DNA of 64,000 nucleotides from Mucilaginibacter rubeus (GTDB lineage: Bacteria > Bacteroidota > Bacteroidia > Sphingobacteriales > Sphingobacteriaceae): positions 310,001-374,000 of the forward strand of contig NZ_BMKD01000001.1 of assembly GCF_014643835.1 (NCBI RefSeq), read 5' to 3'. The position numbers and the translations under genes are program-made. Shown here one piece after another: positions 24,281 to 35,250 of this stretch; the stretch's first letter is position 1, and each line of letters starts with the position of its first letter. The notes beneath the pieces were generated by a model. It did not search any database, was not told where the DNA came from, and worked only from the letters and a program-made list of their open reading frames with translations.

Positions 24281-25401
24281 TAATCAAAAATGTAACGCAT
24301 TGTTAAATGCTTTTTGCCAAATGTAGCACCAACTGCTTCGTGGATGGCTATCATTTTGTCGTTAAAATCGCCTACCCAGGATAGTTCAAGCTCATCATAA
24401 CGCTTGAGAGGCAATACATATTCCTTTAATTTTATAAACATCGCCGATTCGAGGCCGTGCTTCTGGTACTTTTGTTTCGTGCCCATCACAATAGCCCGCA
24501 TGCGGGATACCCCTTTCCAGCGGTAGTATAAAAATTTAAGTTTACCTATCAGGTCCAGTTTGCCGTTTAGCGGTTTAAGCATCTGGTTGGCATCGGGTAA
24601 AATGATCATAAAAGATGCTGGTTCATCATCTACATAGGCAAACCAGATCAATTTTTCGTCCATCAGGGGCTTCATTTTTTCGAAGCTTTCCATGATCGTA
24701 TCGTATGTGATAGGAACAAAGTTTTCAAAATCTTTCCATCCATCGTTATAAACCTCAATAAAATCAGCTGCGAATTTTTCTATTTTTTTTATTTCAAAGT
24801 GCCTGAAATCGTATCCGGGCTTTTTTGCTACCCAATTAGCTATTTTGGTAAATCGCTCGGGGAAAGGTTTATGAGCGTCAACATGGTTAGTGATCTGCGC
24901 GTACTGGGTTTTAAAGCCGTACTCATCAAAAAAGGCCTGGTAATACGGATGATTATAGTTCATTCCATAAGAGGGAGGAGTGAAGCCTTCAACCAGCAAG
25001 CCCCAAAAGTTGTCGTTTTCGCCAAAGTTGATGGGGCCGTCCATGGCTTTCATGCCGTTTTCCCTAAGCCAGTTTCTCGCGGTATCAAATAAAAGAAAGG
25101 CAGCTTCTTTGTTATCGGTACACTCAAAAAAACCCATGCCGCCGGTTGGCTGCTCGTAATTGTATGCCTTTTTTTCATTAATAAAAGCAGCAACCCGGCC
25201 AATTAGATGGTCATTGTCATCTGTCAGGATCCAACGGGTACATTTACCATGTTGATGAAAGTTGTTTTTTGCCGGGTTAAATACAGCTTCAATATCATTA
25301 TCAAGCGGGCAAACCCAGTTATCGTCATCTTTATAAATGATGCGGGCCACATCTAAAAAAGCCTTTTTTGTTGCTTTGTCCTTTACTTCTGTTACTTTCA
25401 T
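24280..25401 (-). CDS. YghO-like N-acetyltransferase-fold protein
   Basis: A 373-residue protein resembling Escherichia coli YghO and related GNAT-like proteins. Segments include GRVAAFINEKKAYNY, GGMGFFECTDNKEAAFLLFD, MKAMDGPINFGENDNFWGLLVEGF and ELSWVGDFNDKMIAIHEAVGA, the last resembling a GNAT acetyl-CoA region. The acyl acceptor is unknown. It is followed on the same strand by the acidic protein gene after about 84 bases (transcription order right to left: YghO-like, acidic protein, scpB run in reverse). Confidence 0.75.
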   Translation of the reverse strand: MKVTEVKDKATKKAFLDVARIIYKDDDNWVCPLDNDIEAVFNPAKNNFHQHGKCTRWILTDDNDHLIGRVAAFINEKKAYNYEQPTGGMGFFECTDNKEAAFLLFDTARNWLRENGMKAMDGPINFGENDNFWGLLVEGFTPPSYGMNYNHPYYQAFFDEYGFKTQYAQITNHVDAHKPFPERFTKIANWVAKKPGYDFRHFEIKKIEKFAADFIEVYNDGWKDFENFVPITYDTIMESFEKMKPLMDEKLIWFAYVDDEPASFMIILPDANQMLKPLNGKLDLIGKLKFLYYRWKGVSRMRAIVMGTKQKYQKHGLESAMFIKLKEYVLPLKRYDELELSWVGDFNDKMIAIHEAVGATFGKKHLTMRYIFD

Positions 25402-29561: not shown

Positions 29562-29921
29562 AGTTGGTTGGAGATAAATTGTTAATAAATTATTTTATGC
29601 TAAACCAGCACACCTGCTGTGGCCAGCCGGTGTAAACATGTAACCTTCTATAAATTATTGATATGTTTAATTGGTTTATAACTTATGTATATGAACGCTT
29701 TATGGCAGTGTTTGGTTTTAAAAATTTGAGATTATTTAGAAAATATTTCGAAGATTAAATTCCGGTTAAAGGCGGCAGTTTATTTATCCCCCCGGAAGCA
29801 TTTTGTATATATACCTATACAGTTAACCAGCTTAATATCCTGTTATCGAAATTGGTTTTCGACAATAAGCCTGAGGTTAAAAAGGCCTGATTATTGCATG
29901 CCTTTTTATCAAACATTAACC
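29562..29921. other. Divergent intergenic region, 360 bases
   Basis: AT-rich sequence between the divergent zinc-ribbon and small lipoprotein genes. An imperfect hairpin (caataagcct / aggcctgattattg, about 29862-29895) lies near its right end. No ORF, operator or repeat is evident otherwise. Confidence 0.35.
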
Positions 29922-30089
29922 ATGAAAAACGCACACTTTTTATTATTCATTTTTGCCTTATTAACTATGAGCGGGTGCTCGGTTATAGGCGATATTTTTA
30001 AAGCCGGGGCAGTAACCGGTATCATAGCTGTAATAATTGTTATCGCTATTATTATTTGGGTGATCTCTTTATTTAGAGGGAAAAGCTAA
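29922..30089 (+). CDS. Small lipoprotein with one transmembrane segment
   Basis: A 55-residue peptide. The start at 29922 (MKNAHFLLFIFALLTMSGC) gives a signal peptide with lipobox MSGC; the upstream ATG at 29898 would add 8 residues before it. The rest, from AGAVTGIIAVIIVIAIIIWV, is a hydrophobic helix with a short basic tail. Function unknown. The next gene (DUF2383) follows after 82 AT-rich bases. Confidence 0.65.
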   Translation: MKNAHFLLFIFALLTMSGCSVIGDIFKAGAVTGIIAVIIVIAIIIWVISLFRGKS

Positions 30090-30171
30090 TTTTCATTTTG
30101 GATTATTTTTTATATAATTAATTAAACAATTTAATTTTAAAGGGGTTGATATTATATAAAAACATCTAATC

Positions 30172-30627
30172 ATGGAAAATACACAAGCAACCGTAGAGAT
30201 TTTAAATGATCTGATACAGATCAACAATGACAGGATTGAGGGCTATCAACGCGCCTCAAAAGATTTGAAGGATGGCGATACCGAACTGAAATCGCTTTTT
30301 ACAAGGTTTATTGGCCAAAGTCAGGGTTACAGGCTTGCTTTGGGTACAGAGGTTAGTGCTTTTGGAAAAGACATTGAAACCAGCACAACTACCAGCGGCA
30401 AAATACACAGGGCCTGGCTTGATGTTAAAGCCGCGTTTACCGGGCATGATACCCACAACGTACTGGAGGAATGCGAATTTGGTGAAGATGCCATTTTAAA
30501 AGCATACCGTACCGCGCTTGAAGACGAAAATTTACCGGCCTACCTGCGCGAAACGATCAGCCAGCAGGAAAGTGAACTGCTTGACGCTCATGACGAGATT
30601 AAAGCCCTGCGGGATACTGTTCACTAA
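30172..30627 (+). CDS. PA2169-like four-helix-bundle protein (DUF2383)
   Basis: A 151-residue cytoplasmic helical protein of the PA2169/DUF2383 family: ATVEILNDLIQINNDRIEGY, RFIGQSQGYRLALGTEV and YLRETISQQESELLDAHDEI. Family members are ferritin-like bundles of unknown function, often stress induced. It has its own terminator. Confidence 0.85.
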   Translation: MENTQATVEILNDLIQINNDRIEGYQRASKDLKDGDTELKSLFTRFIGQSQGYRLALGTEVSAFGKDIETSTTTSGKIHRAWLDVKAAFTGHDTHNVLEECEFGEDAILKAYRTALEDENLPAYLRETISQQESELLDAHDEIKALRDTVH

Positions 30628-30654
30628 ATTTATTGATAACTAATTAACCACCGG

Positions 30655-30682
30655 GGGGCAGTTTTATAACTGCTCCTTTTTT
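30655..30682 (+). terminator. Terminator of the DUF2383 gene
   Basis: ggggcagtt / aactgctcc stem (one G-T pair) with a run of T after it. Confidence 0.75.
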
Positions 30683-30706
30683 ATGATTACTGTTAAGCGG
30701 TTGGTT

Positions 30707-31150
30707 TTATGGTTGAGGGATAATGTTTATATTTTTAACTTGCCAGCTATTTTTCTCGGCCCAGTCACCATCAGTATACAACATTTTAACTTCCCAGGCT
30801 GATTGTTCCATTTTGCCACTATCGTTCTCAATTTTTACTGTTGATTGTACCTCGTAGCTATTAATTGTTGTATCAATAACCGATTTAAAACTGTTGTTAG
30901 GAAAAACCGCTTTTTGAGGTTGTTTCAGCTTTTCCTTTACAAATAATTTTGCCATGGTAAAAGCTTCCTTTGCAGTTGGTTTACGGTTAAGATGAATTGT
31001 GCTGTTTTTACTTATGCCAAGCACTACAATAATAAATGTTATCGCAAAAACTATGGCAAAAAGGGTAGCAGTGCGTATATGCGGATGGCGGTGCCAGCCA
31101 ATACTTTTACGCTCCTCGGCACTAAGCGTTTTCCATTCAGAATATTTCAT
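30707..31150 (-). CDS. Hypothetical single-pass membrane protein
   Basis: A 147-residue protein. Residues 1-27 are polar and basic, residues 28-47 (ATLFAIVFAITFIIVVLGIS) form one membrane helix, and the remainder (about 55-147) would be periplasmic, with VKEKLKQPQKAVFPNN and SWQVKNINIIP. I do not recognise a family. It shares a terminator region with the neighbouring repeat lipoprotein. Confidence 0.6.
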   Translation of the reverse strand: MKYSEWKTLSAEERKSIGWHRHPHIRTATLFAIVFAITFIIVVLGISKNSTIHLNRKPTAKEAFTMAKLFVKEKLKQPQKAVFPNNSFKSVIDTTINSYEVQSTVKIENDSGKMEQSAWEVKMLYTDGDWAEKNSWQVKNINIIPQP

Positions 31151-31211
31151 ATTTTATTATGTATCACATTAAGCAATACCAATAGAAATTGTTTGGCGGT
31201 TTTGAGCAAAA

Positions 31212-31248
31212 AAAAAACGCCTCCGGAAAACCGGGGGCGTTTTTTTTA
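31212..31248. terminator. GC-rich bidirectional-looking terminator
   Basis: acgcctccgg-aaaa-ccgggggcgt with A-runs before and T-runs after lies downstream of the minus-strand repeat lipoprotein. Confidence 0.8.
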
Positions 31249-31263
31249 ACATAAAAAGTTAAA

Positions 31264-31470
31264 TTACTTTTTAGTAGTGTCTTTTTTAGTGGTGTCAGCT
31301 TTAGTAGTATCAGCAGCCATTTTAGAAGTGTCAGCTTTAGTAGTATCAGCAGCCATTTTAGAAGAATCAGCTTTAGTTGAATCAGCAGCAGAAGATGATG
31401 ATGAACCTTTACAAGCAGCGAAAGAAACAGCGATAGCTAAAGCTAAAAAGCCTAATTTGAAATTTTTCAT
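31264..31470 (-). CDS. Repeat lipoprotein 1 (KADTTK/SKMAADTTK repeats)
   Basis: A 68-residue exported lipoprotein. Start at 31470 (MKNFKLGFLALAIAVSFAAC); the longer frame to 31539 would put 23 residues before a standard signal peptide and would overlap the promoter motif. After the lipobox FAAC the mature chain is low complexity: five serines, then repeats of SKMAADTTKADT, ending DTTKKDTTKK. DNA positions 31292-31327 and 31328-31363 are identical 36-bp copies (12 codons). It is paralogous to the next upstream gene. The ECF-type site at 31508-31537 points at it. Function unknown; a surface spacer or stress lipoprotein is a guess. Confidence 0.75.
   Translation of the reverse strand: MKNFKLGFLALAIAVSFAACKGSSSSSAADSTKADSSKMAADTTKADTSKMAADTTKADTTKKDTTKK
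31292..31363. repeat. Perfect 36-bp in-frame tandem duplication
   Basis: Two identical 36-base units inside the lipoprotein gene, each encoding 12 residues. They provide a substrate for slippage or recombination without frameshift. Confidence 0.9.
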
Positions 31471-31507
31471 GTTTAATTTTTTTAATAAGTGATTTAATAG
31501 TTTACAG

Positions 31508-31537
31508 CTTAATACCAGAAATAAAAAAAGGTAACCC
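31508..31537 (-). promoter_or_regulatory. Putative ECF sigma promoter of repeat lipoprotein 1
   Basis: On the coding strand this reads GGGTTACC-N14-GTATTAAG, 38 bases before the ATG. It is identical in both blocks and spacing to the site at 31896-31925. Confidence 0.7.
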
Positions 31538-31648
31538 ATAATTTTGAAAAAAAATTACAAGTCACCTTTTTTATTGATGGATAACTAAAAAATCAATAGA
31601 AAAAGATTAAAAATGATATTTAACTACTTTCTATCTTATCAGAAATAA

Positions 31649-31852
31649 TTATTTCTTGGTGGTGTCTTTTTTAGTAGTATCAGCAACAACTTTAGTAGTG
31701 TCAGTTTTAGTAGAGTCAGTAACAACTTTAGTTGAGTCAACTACAGTAGTTTTAGTAGTATCACCTTCAGTTTTTTTAGAGTCACCGTTACAAGCTGAAA
31801 AAGAAGCTGCCAGAACTAATGCTACGAATGCTAATTTAAATGTGTTTTTCAT
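31649..31852 (-). CDS. Repeat lipoprotein 2 (DSTK/DTTK repeats)
   Basis: A 67-residue lipoprotein, MKNTFKLAFVALVLAASFSAC, with a lipobox FSAC. The mature part is Asp/Thr/Lys/Val-rich: DTTKTTVVDSTKVV, TDSTKTDTTKVVADTTKKDTTKK in sequence. The last ten residues DTTKKDTTKK are identical to those of repeat lipoprotein 1, so the two are tandem paralogs. Its own ECF-type site lies at 31896-31925. It is divergent from the sigma factor gene. Function unknown. Confidence 0.75.
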   Translation of the reverse strand: MKNTFKLAFVALVLAASFSACNGDSKKTEGDTTKTTVVDSTKVVTDSTKTDTTKVVADTTKKDTTKK

Positions 31853-31895
31853 TTTCTTAATTTTTAAAATGTTAACGTTTTGTGATCGTTTGTTA

Positions 31896-31925
31896 CTTAA
31901 TACGCATTAGTTGAAAAGGTAACCC
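31896..31925 (-). promoter_or_regulatory. Putative ECF sigma promoter of repeat lipoprotein 2
   Basis: Coding strand GGGTTACC-N14-GTATTAAG, 44 bases before the ATG. ATGGGTTACCTTTT is shared with the site of repeat lipoprotein 1. Confidence 0.7.
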
Positions 31926-32028
31926 ATAAAAATTAAACCTTTGTAAATTCCATAGGGTTTGTAGTTTACGTACCGGTTTTTGCAAGCGGTTTTTTTATTG
32001 CAGATTTGCCTGCATAGTTTTTAACATT

Positions 32029-32058
32029 GGGTTACCTTGTTTACCTGCCGGTATTAAC
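32029..32058 (+). promoter_or_regulatory. Putative ECF sigma autopromoter, distal
   Basis: GGGTTACC-N14-GTATTAAC on the plus strand, 124 bases before the GTG of the sigma gene. Confidence 0.65.
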
Positions 32059-32150
32059 GTTAAATTAATGCAGCACACAATTGTTACAGGTAATGAAATG
32101 TAATGCCAATGTTATTAATTTATTTTAGTTTGATTTTTTTTGATAATAGT

Positions 32151-32180
32151 GGGTTACAATTTGACCTAAATAGTATTAAG
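32151..32180 (+). promoter_or_regulatory. Putative ECF sigma site, proximal, touching the start codon
   Basis: GGGTTACA-N14-GTATTAAG ends 2 bases before the GTG at 32182. If it is a promoter, the transcript would start at or inside the annotated start, so this copy may instead be regulatory or mark a different translation start. Confidence 0.55.
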
Positions 32181-32181
32181 A

Positions 32182-32751
32182 GTGAATAAAGACTTAAAAG
32201 CTTCGGCTCCAACAGATAGTGAAATAGTTCTTGGAATACTTAATAACTCGGAAATAGTGCTGAAGAGGCTCTACACAACTTATTTTCCGATGATATTACA
32301 GTTGATCATTAACAACAATGGCGATGAGGATGACGCGAAGGATATTTATCAGGAAGCCATTATCGTTCTTTACAATAAAATTAAAGCGGGTGATTTTGAG
32401 CTAAACAGTAAGCTTAAAACATATATATACTCAGTTTGCCGGCGGCTTTGGCTTAAAAGGCTGAGCCAAATGAACCGATATGGTGGTGACATCAGGGACT
32501 TTGAAGAACACTTACCCGTTGAAGAAGAAATTGATAACCATAACGACAGGGATATCCAGTTTGGTAAAATGGAGAGTGCGCTCCAGTTATTAGGCGAACC
32601 CTGTAAAACCATTATGGAAGATTTTTATATAAAAAACAGATCGATGCAGGAGATCTGTGAGCGGTTTGGCTACACCAATGCGGATAATGCCAAAACGCAG
32701 AAGTACAAATGCCTGCAAAGGCTGAAGAAACTATTTTTTCAGCAGAAATAA
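32182..32751 (+). CDS. ECF RNA polymerase sigma factor
   Basis: A 189-residue sigma-70 family protein of the extracytoplasmic-function type. Region 2 is NSEIVLKRLYTTYFPMILQL with DEDDAKDIYQEAIIVLYNKI (the DAxDxxQE-like segment); region 4 is ALQLLGEPCKTIMEDFYIKN and SMQEICERFGYTNADNAKTQKYKC. The start is a GTG, since the first internal ATG would remove region 2.1. The protease-bearing membrane protein follows after 12 bases, so the pair is one operon. Four copies of a candidate recognition site surround it, two upstream of itself, implying autoregulation (inference). Confidence 0.9.
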   Translation: MNKDLKASAPTDSEIVLGILNNSEIVLKRLYTTYFPMILQLIINNNGDEDDAKDIYQEAIIVLYNKIKAGDFELNSKLKTYIYSVCRRLWLKRLSQMNRYGGDIRDFEEHLPVEEEIDNHNDRDIQFGKMESALQLLGEPCKTIMEDFYIKNRSMQEICERFGYTNADNAKTQKYKCLQRLKKLFFQQK

Positions 32752-32763
32752 GGAGATCAAGAG

Positions 32764-33855
32764 ATGAGTGATAACCAACTAACAGAATTTATTGAACGGT
32801 ACCTCGACGGTAGCATGACCGCCGAAGAACGTGTTCAATTTGAGCTGCTTCGCAAAAACGATGCGGCTGTTGAAAGTAAAGTTACCGAACACATTAAATT
32901 TATAGGCTTACTGAAGCAATATGGCGAACGCCTTGAGCTTGAGAATCGCTTAAACGCCATTCATAATGAAATTGATGTTCATGCGCTGAAAGAGGAAGTA
33001 ATGATCCATCCGGTATGGATTGTGCGCATGTGGCGTAATCATCATTCAAAAATATCGGTAGCCGCTTCAATTGCGATCTTTGGCGTTTTGACTATCCTGA
33101 TCCTGACAGGTAAGCTGAATAATGATAAGTCAAAATATCAGCAACTGAGCGAAAAGATCAACAACATGGAGAAAACGGTTGCTCAGATAGGCCATGGACG
33201 TACTCCGGTAAAACCCAAAATAACCAGGACACCAGCTAATTTCAGGGGCACCGGTTTTGCGCTTACATCAAATGGTTACCTGGCTACAGACTACCATGTT
33301 ATTAAAAATGCTGATTCGGTTTATGTGCAGAATGCCGCGGGCGAATCATTTCATGCTAAGGTTATTTATACCGAACCACAGTATGACCTGGCTATTTTAC
33401 AGATCAATGATCCATCATTTAAAAACCTTGGCCCTATACCATATAACGTTAAAAGGGCCGAAGGTGATCTTGGAGAGAGCGTATACACACTCGGTTACCC
33501 GGCCGATAATATGGTTTATGGAGGAGGTTATTTAGCATCGGCAGCAAATTATTCGGGCGATACTACCGAATATGTAATTTCTGTTCCGGTAAACCCCGGC
33601 AATTCAGGTGGACCATTACTTGATGAAAAAGGAAACGTGATAGGTGTTATTACCGCGCGTCAAACCCAGGTTGCAGGTGCGTATTTTGCTAAAAAATCAA
33701 CTTACCTGTTAAAAGCGATACAAAATATCCCAACCGATTCATTATCGAAAACGCTTAATTTGAATACTAAGAATAAATTAGCTGGATTAAGCCGTACTCA
33801 ACAGAGTAGCAAACTCAAAAATTATGTGTTTATGGTTAAAGTGTATAACCAGTAA
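32764..33855 (+). CDS. Membrane-tethered anti-sigma-like / trypsin-like serine protease fusion
   Basis: A 363-residue protein with three parts. Residues 1-95 are cytoplasmic and helical: TEFIERYLDGSMTAEERVQF resembles the start of Bacteroidota anti-sigma factors. Residues 97-115 (ISVAASIAIFGVLTILIL) are one membrane helix. A short coiled coil (YQQLSEKINNMEKTV) leads to a DegP/HtrA-like S1C protease domain, about 158-325. The triad is His178 (TDYHVI), Asp208 (YDLAIL) and Ser281 (PGNSGGPL), all present. There is no PDZ domain. The gene directly follows the sigma factor, so a role as its membrane anchor/anti-sigma factor with a periplasmic sensor protease is inferred. Confidence 0.82.
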   Translation: MSDNQLTEFIERYLDGSMTAEERVQFELLRKNDAAVESKVTEHIKFIGLLKQYGERLELENRLNAIHNEIDVHALKEEVMIHPVWIVRMWRNHHSKISVAASIAIFGVLTILILTGKLNNDKSKYQQLSEKINNMEKTVAQIGHGRTPVKPKITRTPANFRGTGFALTSNGYLATDYHVIKNADSVYVQNAAGESFHAKVIYTEPQYDLAILQINDPSFKNLGPIPYNVKRAEGDLGESVYTLGYPADNMVYGGGYLASAANYSGDTTEYVISVPVNPGNSGGPLLDEKGNVIGVITARQTQVAGAYFAKKSTYLLKAIQNIPTDSLSKTLNLNTKNKLAGLSRTQQSSKLKNYVFMVKVYNQ

Positions 33856-33898
33856 TCATCAATAGCCCACTCAATAAAAATTAATATATTAAAATGAG

Positions 33899-33927
33899 AA
33901 GAGACACCGTGAGGGGTCTCTTTTTTT
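33899..33927 (+). terminator. Terminator of the sigma/protease operon
   Basis: agagacacc / ggggtctct stem followed by seven T. Confidence 0.7.
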
Positions 33928-33945
33928 GTTTGACAATAGTGTCAC

Positions 33946-34033
33946 GTCATTGCGAGGAGGAACGACGAAGCAATCGCATACCGTACAGGGCGGTCATGCT
34001 TCCGTGCGGTTGCCGCGCTACGCTCGCAATGAC
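33946..34033. repeat. Dispersed repeat with GTCATTGCGAG ends
   Basis: An 88-base element with 11-bp inverted ends gtcattgcgag / ctcgcaatgac and the inner gaacgacgaagcaatcgca. This is a widely known dispersed repeat type in Bacteroidota and other bacteria (general knowledge). Confidence 0.85.
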
Positions 34034-34047
34034 ATAATAATTGTTGT

Positions 34048-35250
34048 TTACCTATCCACCTCGCCTAAAACAAAGTCGATAGAACCTACAATTGCTATCA
34101 AATCGGCAATTAATACACCCTTGGATAGCTCGGGCAGCACCGAAAGATTATTAAAGCTTGGCCCGCGGGATTTTACACGGGTTGGGATCTCTGATTTGCC
34201 GTCTGTAATAAAATAAAAGCCAAGTTCGCCTTTGGCGCCTTCGCAGCGTACATAATAATCCTGTGCTTTAGGAATTGTTTTGCGGGGCATTTTAGCACGG
34301 GGATCAAAATCAGGCGTACGTTTCAATTCTTTCTGCAAACGGTCAAGGCATTGTTCAACTATTCTTAATGATTGCTCAATTTCATCAACACGTACCTTGT
34401 ACCTGTCCCAGCAGTCGCCAACTTTGCCCATCAGGCCCTGCCCAATCGGGATTTCAAAATCAATTTCAGGATAGGCCGAATAATTATCAATCCGCCGCAA
34501 ATCCCATTTTAAGCCCGATGCGCGTAACATAGGGCCCGAGCAACCATAGTTAATAGCTACATCAAGCGGCAAAACGCCCACGTTGGCTGTGCGCGAAATA
34601 AATACCTGGTTGTCGGTAAGCAATTGGTTTAGCTCAACCATTTTAGGTTTAAAATACTCCACAAAATCCCGGCAGCGTTCTTCAAAGCCAACCGGCAGGT
34701 CATAAAATAAGCCGCCTACCCAAATGTAATTGTACAGCATACGAGAGCCCGACGCCCACTCCAGCATCCCCATAATATGCTCCCGGTCCCTGAAACACCA
34801 CAGGAAAGGGGTAAAGGCGCCTATATCAATGCCGTAAGTGCCAATGGCTATCAGGTGCGATGCTATGCGGTTTAGTTCGCAAACCAGCACACGGATGTAC
34901 TCCACACGCTTAGGAATATCCTTGTCAATACCCATCATCCGTTCAACACCCATTACAAAGGCGTGGCTGTTGTTCATAGAAGCCAGGTAATCCATCCTGT
35001 CGGTAAAAGGGATGGTTTGTTGGTAAGTTAATGATTCGGCATGTTTTTCAAAGCAACGGTGCAGGTAGCCAATATGGGGGATCACCTCTTTTACTATCTC
35101 GCCATCGGTAATTAATTCCAGGCGTAAAACCCCGTGAGTTGAGGGGTGTTGCGGACCTACATTAAGTACCATATCCTCAACGCTGGCCCCAGCTATCTTT
35201 TTATTGTACCTGAGGAGTGCTTCTTCGTATTTGGGGTTTGTAATGACCAA
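34048..35250 (-). CDS. nuoD: NADH-quinone oxidoreductase subunit D
   Basis: A 400-residue subunit of complex I that forms part of the quinone site. Signatures: [57 protein letters not shown]-like [18 protein letters not shown], and the C-terminal [20 protein letters not shown]. The only start giving a full N-terminus is a TTG at 35250, as the frame closes 12 bases further upstream. nuoC lies 187 bases upstream on the same strand; nuoA and nuoB lie 7 kb away on the other strand. Confidence 0.95.

Follow-up and report, generated by a model that had tools for sequence, protein, structure and literature searches.

A predicted autoregulated envelope-stress switch of Bacteroidia: an ECF sigma factor, a candidate one-chain anti-sigma/protease partner and small repeat lipoproteins linked by one promoter motif

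What reads the promoter-like motif that recurs at one locus of Mucilaginibacter rubeus, and what does the gene pair beside it do? The locus lies in a 64-kb stretch of DNA (contig NZ_BMKD01000001.1, positions 310,001 to 374,000 of the forward strand), here called the window and numbered from its first base. It comprises a gene for an extracytoplasmic function (ECF) sigma factor, the gene of a membrane partner protein just downstream, and two small repeat lipoprotein genes, A and B, on the opposite strand (Table 1). A sequence-only reading of the window had proposed that the sigma factor recognises the motif, switching on itself and the lipoproteins. Our analysis suggests, with a probability of about 0.83, that the module serves Bacteroidia as an autoregulated envelope-stress switch, in which the ECF sigma factor would be held by a partner that unites RseA-like and DegS-like functions on one chain.

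We scanned the window with the pattern GGGTTAC-N15-GTATTAA. The scan returned four strict matches, compared with none in 100 dinucleotide-preserving shuffles, and a chance origin of the motif was rejected on this result. The four copies were exact and stood where the sequence-only reading had placed them, with a 14-base N stretch between the extended boxes in all four, and each faced an adjoining gene, namely the two lipoprotein genes once each and the sigma gene twice. From the end of the site to the start codon, the two leftward sites lie 37 nucleotides (nt) from lipoprotein B and 43 nt from lipoprotein A, and the two rightward sites lie 123 nt (distal) and 1 nt (proximal) from the sigma GTG at 32182. 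No further strict copy was present in the window, in line with the earlier count by eye; with up to three mismatches, the sole extra match was at 24504-24533 (three mismatches), and the total was weak at this tolerance, with 5 matches against 1.85 expected and a count of 5 attained by 5/100 shuffles.

The intergenic regions of relatives, whose comparison the sequence-only reading had suggested, were examined in the best 80 of 233 confirmed relatives (0.797 Mb), which belong to Mucilaginibacter, Pedobacter, Daejeonella, Solitalea and kin; the closest sigma factors among them, from Mucilaginibacter pineti and Mucilaginibacter sp. OK283, share 93% identity with that of the window. The results showed that GGGTTAC-N15/16-GTATTA stands directly before the sigma gene in 80/80 loci. 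The 228 sites found comprised 80 sigma-proximal, 26 sigma-distal and 120 lipoprotein sites (scored where an ATG no more than 115 nt away starts a frame of 30-129 amino acids with a lipobox-like string), and 2 that the script left unassigned. Both of these were lipoprotein starts by eye, one with a frame break, so that 228/228 sites point at either the sigma gene or a small lipoprotein gene. By script, 74/80 loci carried at least one lipoprotein site; in one of the others (L016), the sequence reaches just 289 bases upstream of the sigma gene. When the 22 bases upstream of the -10 box were inspected with no -35 box required, GGGTTAC was present in 79/80 sigma-proximal sites, the last having a 16-base spacer and being shifted by one; this test is free of selection, whereas the 100% boxes of the lipoprotein rows result from selection. 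The sigma gene's own promoters (GGGTTACNATT; 79 rows, first G = 0) carry A at 8 (92%), TT at 9-10 (100%) and AA at 18-19 (96-99%), and the lipoprotein promoters (GGGTTACCTTTT; 119 rows) carry C in 96% and T in 95-100%, followed by a second T run with T at 16-18 (72-80%). Unlike the promoter, the lipoprotein repeat arrays vary freely among relatives.

The partner frame comes next after the sigma gene in 79/80 loci (L013 ends too soon), with a gap of 12 nt in the window. Its layout comprises a cytoplasmic anti-sigma-like helical domain (residues ~1-80), a membrane helix (~97-115), an HtrA/DegS-type serine protease (~159-310) and a conserved C-terminal strand, and in an alignment of 26 partners the N-terminal region, membrane helix and protease were all conserved. 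Hydropathy and the structural model both supported the helix at 97-115, and gene order and topology were those of a membrane anti-sigma factor. The protease matched the trypsin-like domain PF13365 (80.8 bits), and its top-ranked solved fold match was the DegS protease domain, with HtrA1 and Deg1 close behind. The catalytic triad H178, D208 and S281 was intact in 80/80 family rows (window included) and in 22/22 others, giving the partner the trypsin-like fold with His-Asp-Ser triad of HtrA/DegS proteins; against the NCBIfam DegS model TIGR02038, its score was 60.7 bits, below the cut-off of 422.95. The AlphaFold2 model placed helices at 3-15, 20-32 and 34-69, a long helix at 84-114, a weak stalk, a mostly confident protease barrel from 159 and a C-terminal strand at 355-361; at this C-terminus (window 33826-33852), YVFMVKVY is strongly conserved, and most of it is modelled as a strand that follows the protease domain. 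We also built a profile from residues 1-99 of the partner and ran it on 2,434 open reading frames (ORFs) from 32 loci. The top 30 matches were 30 sigma neighbours, among them 8 partners that lack a protease; the three lowest had E values of 0.012-0.33 and the first non-neighbour 0.68. Retrieving only sigma neighbours in the top 30 is the behaviour expected of a sigma-binding domain, and the N-terminus is very probably an anti-sigma domain. The protease-bearing membrane partner of the sequence-only reading can be described more sharply as a likely anti-sigma/protease fusion.

Two roles can be considered for the protease domain. It may take part in releasing the sigma factor, or it may be an envelope effector (quality control or processing) or a ligand-sensing fold, with release left to another site-1 protease. 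The effector or sensing role would suit the finding that no PDZ domain appeared in Pfam for the window partner, nor among the families listed at E ≤ 1 for the partner alignment (25 of 53), as well as the existence of partners with the same N-terminal domain and no protease and of further, weaker protease-domain matches in family genomes; it is countered by the DegS fold match and by a triad kept in 102/102 partners and linked to sigma factor and promoter, although the triad alone cannot separate site-1 from effector action. Participation in sigma release, and not merely sensing or effector work, appears moderately likely, while the effector or sensing role retains an appreciable minority chance. 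For the following step, TIGR00054, which we take to be an RseP-type protease, scored above its cut-off in 12/12 genomes tested.

Genome scans linked the motif to this gene pair, and the strict form was far commoner than the reversed pattern, as the proposed regulon would lead one to expect. In the nearest relative genome scanned (G001; 7.1 Mb, with 36% of sampled words in common with the window), 4 of 5 strict sites lay at the sigma locus. Strict sites occurred in 47/49 genus genomes (156 sites, 2 for the reversed pattern), and 151 family genomes held 295 strict sites, compared with 7 of the reversed pattern. The partner, scored as a match with E below 1e-40 (a few of them cut by contig ends) and serving as a proxy for the sigma factor, was present in 137/151 family genomes; the 14 genomes without it had a weak match only (11) or none (3), those weak matches falling on the protease part in the 6 cases listed, and 6/14 of these genomes were under 90% complete. 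The strict site was present in 131/137 genomes with the partner and in 0/14 without it (P ~2e-15, kinship ignored and the value indicative only). In the six partner-bearing exceptions, the promoter had a 16-base spacer (4) or read AGGTTAC (2). Site placement (228/228) and this co-occurrence together support the predicted regulon of sigma gene and repeat lipoproteins.

The module was also found in other families. The strict form was present in 0/31 genomes of other families, some of which (e.g. G060, G065, G075) carry variants. With a cut-off of E ≤ 1e-25, the sigma profile detected relatives in 67/198 genomes of the class, of which 61 lie outside the family. From 32 of those 61, most of them top-scoring, we read one locus per genome, with patterns looser than the strict form. 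A protease partner was present in 22/32 loci from eight families (f27, f12, f36, f62, f49, f41, f22, f17), and in 22/22 of these a GGGTTAC site adjoined one or both of two genes, the sigma gene (21 loci) and a divergent small lipoprotein gene (18 loci); the -10 forms included GTATAAA, GAATTAA and GTATTAA. Among the 10 loci without a protease partner, a site stood at the sigma gene only in L166; that of L168 lay 445 nt upstream of the sigma frame, and L171 had a -35 box without a -10 box. Across the 32 genomes, GGGTTACC-N13-15-GNATWAA gave 47 matches, compared with 4 for the reversed pattern. As recognised from sequence, the module is spread over the class Bacteroidia in nine families, Sphingobacteriaceae and eight more, and is not peculiar to the source genome.

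These counts bear on whether some other regulator, a different ECF sigma factor or a DNA-binding activator, reads the motif, with the sigma gene a mere target. The pairing of motif and sigma factor is drawn from co-occurrence and position, and G001 holds at least two further relatives of the module sigma factor; yet the motif is missing from 14/14 family genomes without the partner and nearly follows the protease partner among the extra-family sigma loci (L166 and L168 excepted), its -35/-10 spacing and direction are fixed, and autoregulation by the adjoining sigma factor is the simplest reading. Another regulator is accordingly improbable in our estimate, and recognition of the motif by the ECF sigma factor of 32182-32751 itself appears highly likely.

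Sites away from the sigma locus pointed to further candidate targets. We read the 17 off-locus sites listed in the genus scan, 14 of the 16 further ones listed in the family scan (G189 and G208 left out) together with one met elsewhere, and 16/16 in the 32 extra-family genomes. Of the 15 sites in the second group, none lies in an ORF of 60 amino acids or more. DUF4294 proteins followed the site in L103 and L213 (by Pfam) and in L209, L211, L212 and L217 (by eye), DUF2459 proteins in L099, L100 and, in another family, L229, and DUF4349 proteins with a lipobox in L219 and, again in another family, L228. A small membrane protein that begins with K-HPI followed in L097, L106, L109 and L220 (94-109 amino acids) and, by eye, in L107, and more repeat lipoproteins were seen by eye in L207, L208, L214, L221, L225, L226, L227 and L233. 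The recurrence of the same gene families under the motif in different bacterial families makes chance unlikely, and the off-locus sites recur before envelope-type genes, where the sequence-only reading had proposed to test for enrichment. The only off-locus exact site of G001 (L005:1501-1853) lies 21 nt before a gene for a 100-amino-acid hydrophobic protein; no clear gene lay behind comparable sites in L110, L111 and L112. That the four window copies stem from a recent local duplication of lipoprotein genes and upstream DNA, with no functional regulon, is very improbable and was rejected as a sole explanation, for although lipoproteins A and B are similar, tandem and rich in low-complexity repeats, the inter-box spacers differ among sites while the boxes are constant, and the motif is shared by different genera and families, including at unlinked genes.

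Several observations weigh against the proposed switch. No lipoprotein site was found in 5/80 loci (L027, L037, L068, L073, L074) in which some upstream DNA is present, the strict site was absent from 2/49 genus genomes, and with one mismatch G001 gained 3 extra sites against 1 for the reversed pattern, hardly an enrichment. Off-locus sites fell within long genes in 3/17 genus cases and in or across long frames in 4/16 extra-family cases, L231 being doubtful with a lipoprotein-like start 16 nt on; others preceded housekeeping-like genes in L218, L223 and L232, presumably GlyA-, UvrA- and Ppx-like, respectively. All of this is what chance would produce, and the sites before housekeeping-like genes, like those with no clear gene behind them, are probably noise. 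For the partner, model quality was moderate (mean predicted local distance difference test score 76.5, predicted template modelling score 0.55), and with no PDZ domain found, DegS-type activation cannot apply as such. The N-terminal domain matched zf-HC2 below threshold in 9/26 members (best E 0.013), the best sub-threshold match of the window partner's N-terminus was Hemerythrin (E 0.0027), and a sequence search of solved structures with this domain returned no anti-sigma structure and nothing meaningful.

On balance, we favour the following sequence of events for the autoregulated switch. The sigma factor would read GGGTTAC-N15(16)-GTATTAA as -35 and -10 boxes before its own gene and the small repeat lipoprotein genes and, in relatives, would also serve a few distant genes of envelope type. 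In the resting state, the N-terminal domain of the partner would hold the sigma factor at the membrane. The input is probably an envelope signal, upon which the periplasmic DegS/HtrA-type domain would cut the periplasmic stalk of its own chain or of a neighbouring subunit in a trimer. RseP-type intramembrane cleavage would follow and free the sigma factor, which would then amplify itself and fill the envelope with small lipoproteins.

The position of the sigma start codon raises a further possibility. Start codons in our spacing counts are predicted, each being the nearest ATG, GTG or TTG in frame beyond the box. Among the 80 loci of the family, this start lay 3-4 nt after GTATTA in 71 (70 GTG; TTG in L088), 9 of which had been scored at 1 nt via a TTG, the in-frame GTG being at 4, and 13-18 nt after it in the other 9 (6 GTG, 2 ATG, 1 TTG), with no intermediate spacing. 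This mostly two-peaked distribution fits leaderless translation in the close class. In six divergent family loci (N16 or AGGTTAC), a GTG likewise stood a few bases after the box. Outside the family, counting from the end of the 7-base box, 15 of 21 loci with a scored start had an ATG at 9-19 nt, candidate GTG codons lay at 2-3 nt in L146, L153, L160 and L164 and at 17 nt in L162, and a TTG lay at 7 nt in L151. The case is weakened by the occurrence of GTG outside the close class; in addition, the geometry of E. coli sigma-E would place the first transcribed base of the proximal site within or beyond the GTG codon. A leaderless transcript from the sigma-proximal promoter may be regarded as an even bet. 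The fuller proposal, a class-wide Bacteroidia system in which anti-sigma factor and site-1 protease form one polypeptide (a self-contained RseA-DegS) and the sigma factor is made from a leaderless messenger RNA, is tentative and somewhat doubtful as a whole. If it is true, the switch would set its own translation mode, with the distal promoter yielding a transcript that has a leader in roughly one third of loci (26/80).

In E. coli, DegS and then RseP cleave RseA to release sigma-E. The present module shares with that pathway an ECF sigma factor, an RseP-type protease in the genome, proposed autoregulation and an envelope output. It differs in having the anti-sigma-like and protease domains on one chain with no PDZ domain found, in its promoter boxes and in an apparently very small target set. 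A membrane anti-sigma factor, here predicted, and a DegS-type protease are likewise parallel to RseA and DegS, which PMC8103513 describes. Within Bacteroidota, the EcfO-Reo pair of Bacteroides/Phocaeicola with its NigD lipoproteins, as presented in PMC13114119, is similar in being an ECF/anti-sigma pair whose output includes surface lipoproteins, and both antibacterial toxins and the gut environment induce it; Reo, however, is described as spanning from cytoplasm to cell surface, whereas our partner resembles an inner-membrane protein with a protease, and the module lipoproteins are repeats of 60-110 amino acids. The Dma/Das (ECF21) pairs of Bacteroides thetaiotaomicron, described in PMC13088901, are ECF/anti-sigma pairs that also affect the outer membrane, but their dual-membrane-spanning anti-sigma factors differ from the partner architecture; a word search of the main text of that paper gave no promoter motif. 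Porphyromonas gingivalis SigH (PG1827; named in part of PMC5607195) and the PG1828 lipoprotein offer another ECF sigma/small lipoprotein pair, adjacent by locus number only. Against the PG1828 family model (PG1828_fam_lipo, NF050142; cut-off 50), lipoproteins B and A scored 29.1 and 28.8 bits. Only 4/30 PG1828-family loci (L182, L193, L194, L195) lie within 1.5 kb of such a sigma gene, all of them the module under study; none of the four top scorers (L177-L180) does. The PG1828 module was rejected as the same system on these sub-cut-off scores and mostly unlinked loci.

The components are of known kinds (ECF sigma factor, membrane anti-sigma factor, HtrA protease, lipoproteins), and what appears new is the one-partner fusion, the promoter and the spread. 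In the open full-text literature, nothing on the motif or on an anti-sigma/HtrA fusion was seen among the matches listed, most subscription papers lying outside the search and novelty being unproven; a full-text search for GGGTTAC with "sigma factor" gave, among the matches listed, no title on Bacteroidota promoters.

The remaining features concern the single genes and their surroundings. The sigma protein matched TIGR02937 (68.7 bits, cut-off 42.9) over residues 28-183 and PF04542 for region 2, with no separate Pfam match for region 4 at E 0.001, and has the sigma-70 regions 2 and 4 alone that mark ECF (group 4) factors; a sequence search of solved structures with its profile found nothing at E ≤ 1e-5. 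Both lipoproteins have a signal peptide with a lipobox followed by D/S/T/K repeats, which in the lipoprotein B gene correspond to a 36-base coding repeat. The start of lipoprotein B is likely 31470, because the frame from 31539, the start in the mechanical ORF list, would cross the promoter. At 31525-31571 (minus strand), the -35 box of lipoprotein B also forms the right arm of a hairpin (AAAAAGGTGAC...GGGTTACCTTTTT) that resembles a terminator and lies downstream of lipoprotein A; the box may in this way serve both lipoprotein genes. As a general rule, a -35 box acting as terminator arm was rejected, a comparable second arm being found before 11/144 GGGTTACCTTTT sites in relatives. No Rfam structured RNA reached its gathering score within 30000-35000. 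Nearby, a DUF2383 protein (PF09537, 96.5 bits) is encoded at 30172-30627 (plus strand), and upstream of its gene a possible small lipoprotein of 63 amino acids was seen by eye at 29898-30089.

Table 1. Coordinates of the genes and promoter sites of the module in the window
Feature	Position	Strand	Basis
Small repeat lipoprotein B, 68 amino acids, MKNFKLGFLALAIAVSFAAC + D(S/T)(T/S)K repeats	31264..31470	-	ORF, alignment
Promoter motif, lipoprotein B (GGGTTACC-N14-GTATTAAG)	31508..31537	-	Pattern scan; relatives arranged alike
Small repeat lipoprotein A, 67 amino acids, MKNTFKLAFVALVLAASFSAC + DTTK/DSTK repeats	31649..31852	-	ORF, alignment
Promoter motif, lipoprotein A	31896..31925	-	Pattern scan; relatives arranged alike
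Distal promoter motif, sigma gene	32029..32058	+	Pattern scan; second distal site in 26/80 related loci
Proximal promoter motif, sigma gene; -10 abuts GTG start	32151..32180	+	Equivalent in 80/80 related loci
ECF (group 4) sigma factor, 189 amino acids, GTG start	32182..32751	+	TIGR02937, PF04542
Membrane partner, 363 amino acids	32764..33855	+	PF13365, AlphaFold2 model, fold match, triad, sigma-neighbour profile

Class I anti-sigma neighbours were recorded for only 6% of Bacteroidetes ECF sigma factors in one survey (PMC7406223). The module offers a sigma/partner pair whose promoter can be read from sequence, with what looks like a small target set and a proposed protease switch, and it was found in nine families. 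DUF4294, DUF2459 and DUF4349 proteins and the tiny repeat lipoproteins gain a candidate common regulator. The module is probably a little-known response to outer-envelope damage, and it makes the question of envelope stress testable in soil bacteria.

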